From contig DATMBC010000065.1 in NCBI GenBank assembly GCA_035559435.1, positions 1 through 64,000 of the forward strand: a stretch of 64,000 nucleotides of DNA, written 5' to 3'. A program made the translations under genes and the position numbers. The stretch comes from a bacterium. GTDB taxonomy: Bacteria > Zixibacteria > MSB-5A5 > WJJR01. Positions within the stretch are counted from its first letter, which is position 1. The number at the start of each line of letters is the position of its first letter. The notes beneath the pieces are model-generated. The model ran no database searches. It had not been told where the DNA came from and worked only from the letters and a program-made list of their open reading frames with translations. Positions 6,432-33,405 of this stretch are shown piece by piece.

Positions 6432-6809
6432 TCAGACCACCCAAATGATCGCAATGATCAGGCTCGCCCCGGCCAGCGAACGCCACACGATCGAGCGCCC
6501 GCGACGGCGCAACATGGCCGCCATCTCCGGATCGGCGAACGGCTCATCCTGACCGTCGAGATTGCGCGTCCCGCGCGCCGCATGACGTACTCAGGTGGCC
6601 TCGCGCGCCTGCAGGAGCCCGACCAGACCCAGGTACAACAAGGGAAGCAGCGCCAACCGCCAGAGCCGTCCCGCCGCCAGGAGCAGCAGGGCGACCCCCA
6701 ACGCCGCCGATGCCCCGAGCGCCATCAGTCCGCCCAGACGGCGCAGGGCCCGTTCGCGCTCGCCGATGTTGCAGACGCTCCCGACCGCCGGGTCAATCGC
6801 ATGCCGCAA
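6432..6809 (-). CDS. Small membrane protein with in-frame TGA (candidate selenoprotein, or interrupted gene)
   Basis: Conventional translation gives 72 residues from a TTG at 6809. GGAAAG lies 5 bp upstream of that codon and an in-frame stop immediately precedes it, so the start is well supported. The product has CNIGERERALRR then two hydrophobic segments, resembling DUF2892/YgaP-like membrane domains, and ends ...LLQAREAT at TGA 6593-6591. The same frame continues 52 codons to a second TGA (6434-6432) with coding-like composition: about 41 of 52 third positions are G or C. It encodes VRHAARGTRNLDGQ... and a final membrane segment. From memory of the family, relatives read QARxxTC here, which would place this TGA at a conserved cysteine. 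Either it encodes selenocysteine (125 residues total) or a Cys codon has mutated to stop. Confidence 0.6.
6564..6578 (-). other. Possible bacterial SECIS-like hairpin after the in-frame TGA
   Basis: Twelve nt after the TGA, the minus-strand RNA can form a 5-bp stem GCGCG/CGCGC with loop CGGGA. The spacing from TGA to loop (about 17 nt) and a G among the first two loop bases fit the loose bacterial SECIS description. The stem is short and the region GC-rich, so chance is quite possible. Confidence 0.3.
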
Positions 6810-31365: not shown

Positions 31366-32667
31366 ATGGATTCCGACTTCCATTGGCGCGATCAATGGGA
31401 AGCAGTTCTCTGGATTGTCGCCGGCTTCCTCGCCCTCTACTTCCTTCCCGCCGGAGAGCGTCTTGATCGCGCCGTGACCGAGAGCGTCCAGTTGGCGCGC
31501 TGGTACACGCGCGAGCATGTCCTGCTCTGCCTGGTGCCGGCCTTTTTCATCGCCGGCGCCATCAGCGTGTTGGTGCGTCAGGAGAGCGTGATCAAGTTGC
31601 TCGGCCCGCAGGCGAAGAAGTACATCGCCTACCCGGTGGCGGCGGTGACCGGCACTATTCTCGCCGTTTGCTCCTGCACCGTGTTGCCGCTCTTTGCCGG
31701 GATCCGTCAACGCGGCGCCGGCCTCGGTCCGGCGATCGCCTTTCTCTACTCCGGCCCGGCGATCAATCTGCTTGCGATCATCCTCACCGCCCGCGTCCTC
31801 GGCATGGAATTGGGCGTGGCGCGCGCCATCTTCGCCGTCGTTTTCTCGGTTGTGATCGGGCTGGCGATGGCGGCGCTGTTCCGTGAGCGGCCCGACTCCG
31901 GCGCCGCGCCGCTGGTTGTCGGCGAAGGGCGCGACGACCCGCCGGTCTCGCACACGCTCGTTCACCTCCTGGCGCTGATCGCAATCCTGGTCTTCGCCAA
32001 TTGGAGCGAGGGCGGCGACACCGGCGGTATCTGGCATCTGATCTTCCTTATCAAGTGGTGGCTGACCGGCGCGGCGGCGCTGGTGCTGGGTTGGGGGATG
32101 GTGCGCTGGTACGGCCACAAACTCCGGACCGTGGCCTTGCTCGCCTGTTCTGTCATCGCGTTGGCCGTCGTGTTTCCCCGCCATCCCGAAGTCGCTTTCG
32201 CCGCCGCCACAGTCGGGCTCTCAATCCGGTTGGCGCGTTCCACCGGTCTGTCCGCCGCCTGGTTTGGCGCATCGTGGGGATTTGCGCGGCAGATGCTGCC
32301 GCTGTTGCTGATCGGCGTGCTGGTATCGGGATTCCTGCTGGGACGCCCTGGCCACGAAGGGCTGGTGCCGTCGACGTGGATCGCCGGCGTCGTCGGCGGC
32401 AATTCGCTCTTTGCCAACTTCTTTGCCGCGATCGCCGGCGCCTTCATGTACTTCGCCACTCTCACCGAAGTTCCGATCGTGCAGGGATTGGTCGGCAGCG
32501 GCATGGGCAAGGGGCCCGCGCTGGCGCTGCTTCTGGCCGGGCCGGCGCTCTCGTTGCCCAGCATGATCGTGATCGCCGGTGTCATCGGCGTTAAACGGAC
32601 CGTTGTGTACACTGGGCTGGTTGTGGCATTCGCCACGCTCAGCGGACTGGTGTTTGGATCATTTTGA
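31366..32667 (+). CDS. arsP: Permease of the DUF318/ArsP family
   Basis: A polytopic membrane protein of 433 residues with about ten predicted segments. The family motif VCSCTVLPLFAGIRQRGAGLGPAIAFL (near residue 100) includes the paired cysteines noted in organoarsenical permeases, and FSGPAINLL-type wording follows. A symmetric second half repeats this (GGNSLFANFFAAIAGAFMYFATLTEVPIVQGL). Known ArsP proteins export trivalent organoarsenicals. The ArsR gene and ArsE/F/G-like genes around it support that role, but substrate is inferred. There is no ArsB/Acr3 or arsC. Confidence 0.82.
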   Translation: MDSDFHWRDQWEAVLWIVAGFLALYFLPAGERLDRAVTESVQLARWYTREHVLLCLVPAFFIAGAISVLVRQESVIKLLGPQAKKYIAYPVAAVTGTILAVCSCTVLPLFAGIRQRGAGLGPAIAFLYSGPAINLLAIILTARVLGMELGVARAIFAVVFSVVIGLAMAALFRERPDSGAAPLVVGEGRDDPPVSHTLVHLLALIAILVFANWSEGGDTGGIWHLIFLIKWWLTGAAALVLGWGMVRWYGHKLRTVALLACSVIALAVVFPRHPEVAFAAATVGLSIRLARSTGLSAAWFGASWGFARQMLPLLLIGVLVSGFLLGRPGHEGLVPSTWIAGVVGGNSLFANFFAAIAGAFMYFATLTEVPIVQGLVGSGMGKGPALALLLAGPALSLPSMIVIAGVIGVKRTVVYTGLVVAFATLSGLVFGSF

Positions 32668-32678
32668 GAGGAGTTGGG

Positions 32679-32912
32679 ATGAAACGCATCGAAATTCTCG
32701 GCCCCGGCTGCGCCAAGTGCCACAAACTGGCCGAAGTGACGCAGGAGGCCGCCAACGAGCTGAAACTCGAATGTGAAATCGTCAAGGTCACCGACATTCA
32801 GCAGATCGTCAGCCGCAACGTGCTGATGACTCCGGCGCTGGTTGTCGATGGCGCGGTGAAGTGCAGCGGGCGCGTCCCGAGCCTGTCCGAGCTCAAAACG
32901 ATGCTGTCATGA
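32679..32912 (+). CDS. arsE: Thioredoxin-like small redox protein (ArsE-like)
   Basis: A 77-residue thioredoxin-fold protein with an N-terminal redox motif GPGCAKCHKL (CxxC at residues 10-13) and a cis-proline region MTPALVVDGAVKCSG. It belongs to the small redox-active disulfide protein group often found beside DUF318 permeases. In the ArsEFG arrangement it is the first of three genes linked with resistance to aromatic arsenicals. GAGAGGAG precedes the ATG at 32679. It likely passes electrons to the next protein or the CcdA-like one. Confidence 0.82.
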   Translation: MKRIEILGPGCAKCHKLAEVTQEAANELKLECEIVKVTDIQQIVSRNVLMTPALVVDGAVKCSGRVPSLSELKTMLS

Positions 32913-32952
32913 CGGCGGCACGAGCCGAGCCCATCGGACGAAAGGACAAACC

Positions 32953-33405
32953 ATGAAACGCATTCTCCAATTCGCGCTGCTGGCCGTCGTTGTCGCCAGC
33001 ATCATCTGGCTGCTGGTTCCGCGACGCGACGCCGGCGAATCGACCGCCACCGTCGCCGCCGCGCCGGCCGAGTATGTCGCCTACTACTTTCACCGCACCG
33101 CCCGCTGCGTGACCTGCCTGAAGATCGAGCAGTCCGCTCATGATGCCATCTTCGCCAACTTTGGTCCGGCGTTGCGCGCCGGGAAGCTGCTCTTCCTGCC
33201 GACCAATGTCGAGGCGGCGGGCAACGAGCATTTCATCAAGGATTATGAACTGGTCTCGCAGGCGCTGGTGCTGGTGCAGTATCAGGATGGCAAGCCGATG
33301 CGTTCGCGCAACCTCGACAAGATCTGGGATGTGATCGGCGACAGCGCGCAATTCGCCGACTACGTCACCGGCGAAGTCGCCGCGTTCATGGGGATCACTC
33401 CATGA
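32953..33405 (+). CDS. arsF: ArsF-family exported thiol protein
   Basis: A 150-residue protein with an N-terminal membrane anchor or uncleaved signal (residues 5-22, LQFALLAVVVASIIWLLV), placing the rest outside the cytoplasm. The motif FHRTARCVTCLKIEQSA carries a CxxC typical of the family annotated as a nitrophenyl nitroreductase subunit ArsF. A thioredoxin-like fold is likely. Its stop overlaps the next start by 4 bp. It presumably exchanges electrons with the CcdA-like partner encoded downstream; the actual substrate is not visible. Confidence 0.8.
   Translation: MKRILQFALLAVVVASIIWLLVPRRDAGESTATVAAAPAEYVAYYFHRTARCVTCLKIEQSAHDAIFANFGPALRAGKLLFLPTNVEAAGNEHFIKDYELVSQALVLVQYQDGKPMRSRNLDKIWDVIGDSAQFADYVTGEVAAFMGITP

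Follow-up and report, generated by a model that had tools for sequence, protein, structure and literature searches.

The closest described systems for the locus considered here are the bacterial selenoproteins, in which UGA is exchanged with cysteine (Cys) and is followed by a hairpin within published spacing and loop rules, in carriers that have selA and tRNA-Sec. The 2026 catalogue counts 119 prokaryotic selenoprotein families, and the bacterial SECIS rules call for a stem of 4-16 bp, a loop of 3-9 nt with a G in its first two positions, and a distance of 16-37 nt between the UGA and the loop (PMC13188914). Membrane proteins are few in the bacterial catalogue; one of them is the selenocysteine (Sec)-containing MerT (PF02411), a putative mercuric transport protein of ~115 residues (catalogue entry, PMC13188914). 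Automatic annotation is expected to truncate or miss genes of this kind. A further point of comparison is the Sec form of SelD, which is present in the same genomes as the gene described below.

The window, a stretch of 64,000 nucleotides from a Zixibacteria genome (G000), holds a small gene whose family shares the UGA/Cys exchange and the hairpin of bacterial selenoproteins and, in other carriers, selA and tRNA-Sec, but, unlike them, matches no Pfam or NCBIfam model. The gene is very probably a member of an undescribed family of small membrane selenoproteins, with Sec inserted at an in-frame TGA (Table 1). Over at least two phyla, the homologues likely make up a three-helix membrane selenoprotein family of novel fold whose usual form is Sec and not Cys.

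Table 1. Features of the candidate selenoprotein gene, in window positions
Feature	Position	Strand	Remarks
Whole selenoprotein gene	6432..6809	-	125 residues, predicted Sec at codon 73; read-through translation
N-terminal part, 72 codons	6594..6809	-	NIG motif plus a pair of membrane helices up to the predicted Sec; alignment, AlphaFold
In-frame TGA, predicted selenocysteine codon	6591..6593	-	column has TGA in 11 other genomes, Cys in one
SECIS-like hairpin	6564..6578	-	stem GCGCG/CGCGC, loop CGGGA; fits the PMC13188914 model
Read-through part, 52 codons	6435..6590	-	RGTRNLD segment, beta hairpin, third membrane helix; kept in homologues
Final stop TGA	6434-6432	-	closes the read-through frame

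A reading frame that runs past a shared TGA

An earlier note on this DNA had laid out the frame from its TTG start through the TGA and 52 further sense codons to a second stop, and both its coordinates and its sequence are correct. Upstream of the conserved NIG motif, TTG 6809 is the sole usual start codon. GC at third codon positions is 0.875 ahead of the TGA and 0.788 past it, the latter agreeing with the ~79 percent given in that note.

Could the TGA be a recent nonsense mutation that turned an ordinary Cys protein into a pseudogene? It does break the frame, and Cys stands in its place in one homologue, as this explanation would have it. The distribution of the codon argues strongly the other way. 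When 147 related genomes were searched with the read-through protein, homologues turned up in nine others, eight of which have an in-frame TGA, always in the identical column; the ninth (G038) has none and carries Cys there (KTCV). Extending the search by profile to 387 genomes brought in G192, G216 and G229, three carriers that lie outside the phylum and each have TGA at this column. Including the present gene, the tally for this one column is 12 UGA to one Cys in 13 genomes. The TGA carriers are nine Zixibacteria genomes, this one among them, from five families, and the three outside the phylum; the gene is present in 10 of the 133 genomes sampled from Candidatus Zixibacteria and absent from both same-genus genomes, G001 and G002. 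A Cys conserved at this position (QARxxTC), as proposed in the earlier note, is found in the G038 homologue, but the remaining homologues have TGA, so that every homologue carries one or the other.

The part past the TGA also behaves as coding sequence. The read-through protein aligns to 11 homologues over nearly its full length, and ten columns are invariant among 12 aligned members, flanking the TGA on both sides (they include N4, I5, G6, Q57, T62, Sec/Cys63, V64, D75 and S101). Among four close pairs from other genomes, dN/dS past the TGA is 0.075, 0.097, 0.108 and 0.133, comparable to the low values before it (0.088-0.281). Such values would not be expected of a dead tail; the part past the TGA is under purifying selection. 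No relative was found that combines an ordinary sense codon with a degraded 3' part; instead, the 3' part is conserved. Since genomes of this phylum and others beyond it share the TGA, the nonsense mutation, which the earlier note had entertained as the competing view, is excluded at the level of the family, and for this gene it is hardly credible.

A scan of the whole collection with a tighter alignment returned three Zixibacteria records, and one with the single protein gave no match; the plasmid and viral collections yielded no relatives. Comparison of gene neighbourhoods found no neighbour common to distant members. In G192 a long frame precedes the copy; it seems to be another gene's shadow and not part of a fusion.

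Two minor observations concern frames with in-frame TGA. A copy in G041 (L022 1501-1734) contains an early TAA as well as three of them, one at a conserved Trp and one at an Arg, and is apparently degraded or affected by sequencing error. In the window itself, a simple composition scan picked up a weak second frame that runs past a TGA on the minus strand (32642-33001; 67 + 52 codons, third-position GC ~0.7).

A hairpin downstream of the TGA

Hairpins were scored with an own implementation of the published rules (PMC13188914). In this gene the 5-bp stem begins 12 nt after the TGA, which puts the loop at 17 nt, with an energy of -8.4 kcal/mol; the earlier note had this hairpin, with its G-containing loop, at the right position and with the right stem. 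All 12 UGA genes have a rule-fitting hairpin, with the loop 17-19 nt past the UGA. The stem-only energy is weaker than -7.5 kcal/mol in four of the 12, and the 48-nt MFE is below that value in all of them.

The region codes for Arg-Gly-x-Arg in GC-rich genomes, so that chance palindromes are common, and synonymous-codon shuffles were therefore used for comparison, with codon usage estimated for each genome from its analysed stretches. Single-gene P values range from 0.007 to 0.10 across the family, and the hairpin of this gene alone is not significant (P = 0.084). Eight representatives of different subfamilies give a combined Fisher P of 5e-5. The hairpin is thus significant when the family is taken together, where it recurs in every UGA gene, but not in this gene by itself.

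The pattern of changes within the stem adds detail. In close genomes, one stem pair is altered on both sides (GCGCA/TGCGC in G021 versus TCGCA/TGCGA in G043 and G051); in the same register, the Cys gene of G038 shows a C-C mismatch, with another weak hairpin possible. The stem register differs slightly between subfamilies. An Rfam search of the locus gave sub-threshold chance matches only.

The SelD genes of the lineage provide an internal positive control. Like the gene described here, the Sec-form SelD genes of the same genomes have a UGA followed by a hairpin, of 5-8 bp, with its loop 17 nt downstream, although SelD is an unrelated soluble enzyme. The only SelD without a hairpin under these rules is that of G041.

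Together, the TGA/Cys column, the coding sequence past the TGA, the hairpins, the machinery found in relatives and the Sec-UGA selD of G000 support the suggestion, made in the earlier note from the exchange of Cys for TGA, that the codon specifies selenocysteine. In the proposed mechanism, which is the usual bacterial one, SelD and SelA would make Sec-tRNA-Sec, and SelB would bind the hairpin just 3' of UGA 6593-6591 and deliver the charged tRNA there.

Selenocysteine machinery in the genome and its relatives

The genome bin to which the window belongs comprises 106 contigs and 3.0 Mb and is rated 100% complete. A search of the whole bin found no selA, no selB above cut-off and no tRNA-Sec. 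Its tRNA-Sec-like matches are tRNA-Leu, tRNA-Ser and others; the top selB-like match lies in a 406-aa frame that resembles EF-Tu, and the remaining ones resemble further translation GTPases, these protein identities being putative. On the other hand, selD is present (C31:21809-22732, locus L091), with the canonical Sec-UGA in the motif GG-Sec-AGK, an uninterrupted frame, a SECIS-like hairpin at +17 and 68-71% identity to the SelD of the same genus. This selD has a Sec-UGA, and therefore a second gene in the genome also demands Sec decoding.

Relatives show where the machinery would be expected. In G001, G002 and one genome of the same family, tRNA-Sec, selA and selB form a single cluster, which lies between bshC, bshA and bshB-like genes and an amidohydrolase-nfeD-slipin run (G001: L050 7303-14692; also L051 and L052); these bacillithiol gene names were assigned from sequence, not by profile search. 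In G000, nfeD-slipin-glnA occupies 64288-67880 of the contig that holds the window, a little beyond where the window stops and away from the contig ends. Beside this nfeD there is no bsh-sel-amidohydrolase block, and a DNA search found none anywhere in the bin. The locus reflects either a rearrangement whose other side is unassembled or a deletion. Elsewhere, all carriers tested have selA above cut-off apart from G000 and the fragmented G003, as do 44 of 51 further genomes, among them the three carriers from beyond the phylum; most of the phylum has Sec machinery. The check for such machinery that the earlier note had proposed is therefore divided, with selA, selB and tRNA-Sec absent from the bin itself but present in genomes of the same genus and family, and with a Sec-UGA selD kept in G000.

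Has G000 lately lost its Sec machinery, leaving this gene and selD as dead or truncated relics of a real selenoprotein family? The missing genes in a bin rated 100% complete would fit such a loss, as would an nfeD-slipin-glnA locus that is internal to its contig while the neighbouring block is absent from the assembly. Both UGA-dependent genes are nevertheless uninterrupted, with UGA and hairpin intact, and in a bin of 106 contigs, transfer of the block to a contig that was not recovered would leave the same picture. A loss of this kind is unlikely. Most likely the machinery is missing from the assembly, a very recent loss being the less likely explanation, and present-day decoding of UGA as Sec in G000 can be put forward with good confidence. 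A bin rated 100% complete may thus miss a whole decoding system and yet carry genes that need it.

The same absence bears on whether UGA might be read through or reassigned with insertion of another amino acid, such as Trp. Such a reading could draw on the lack of Sec machinery apart from selD in G000. It would have to account for an alternative residue that is Cys and not Trp, for carriers that have selA, for a hairpin that matches both the SECIS model and the spacing in SelD, and for UGA serving as an ordinary stop elsewhere, including the end of this very gene. Insertion of an amino acid other than Sec is accordingly very improbable.

Novelty, predicted fold and possible role

Sequence searches of Pfam (with the single protein and with nine members), NCBIfam and PDB found no convincing family. 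The best E value was 0.0072 in NCBIfam (one of nine members) and 0.00021 in Pfam, for TadE (two of nine); these matches are inconsistent across members, and none is to a selenoprotein model. NCBIfam release 20 has models for many catalogued selenoprotein families, and no profile of such a family in NCBIfam or Pfam (e.g. TsoY, DG, DF, GOS_B or MerT) came above cut-off. None of the 119 catalogued families resembles this one (PMC13188914; open-access literature). Within the open-access literature, one paper mentions both Zixibacteria and selenoproteins. The family is apparently uncatalogued, and the proposed mechanism is not new. The proposal of a new selenoprotein family in an uncultured lineage holds up in that Pfam, NCBIfam and PDB yielded no relative; the family would come on top of the ~119 known, and its lineage is one whose sampled genomes nearly all have selA.

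AlphaFold was run on the 12-sequence alignment with Sec modelled as Cys, and predicts the read-through protein with a mean pLDDT of 94.4 and a pTM of 0.84. In model numbering, helices span residues 7-33 and 38-60, followed by Sec at residue 63, a short helix (64-69), strands at 71-73 and 78-80, and a helix at 84-114. According to this model, the read-through part is integral to one compact three-helix membrane fold. A PDB fold search returned nothing meaningful (best E = 1.9). The mature protein would have three membrane helices. The predicted Sec, in the invariant motif T-Sec-V, would close helix 2, and a short helix plus a beta hairpin would connect it to helix 3. Basic residues at the N terminus and past the Sec place the latter, under the positive-inside rule, probably at the cytoplasmic face of the membrane.

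What might a Sec at this position do? Within the selenoprotein reading, a membrane redox role is somewhat favoured by analogy, with Sec as a redox centre that may act on peroxide or in thiol/selenenylsulfide chemistry. That 12 of the 13 sampled genomes have the Sec form suggests a reaction for which selenium has no easy substitute. The main rival to this role is the handling of metals or metalloids in the membrane, as by Sec-containing MerT-like proteins, in place of redox catalysis. MerT has three membrane helices, with a reactive residue near the loop between helix 2 and helix 3, and the present protein is likewise small, with three predicted membrane helices and its proposed reactive residue in that region. 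Unlike MerT, it has no Pfam MerT match or other sequence match to that protein, and its motif is TUV, mostly without a partner Cys, versus the C/SxxU of MerT-like proteins; nor is there a conserved Cys pair or a neighbour shared by distant members that would point to metals. Metal handling is doubtful, and redox catalysis remains the preferred role. The partner Cys is missing in most members; in G016 and G030 the motif reads C-T-Sec.
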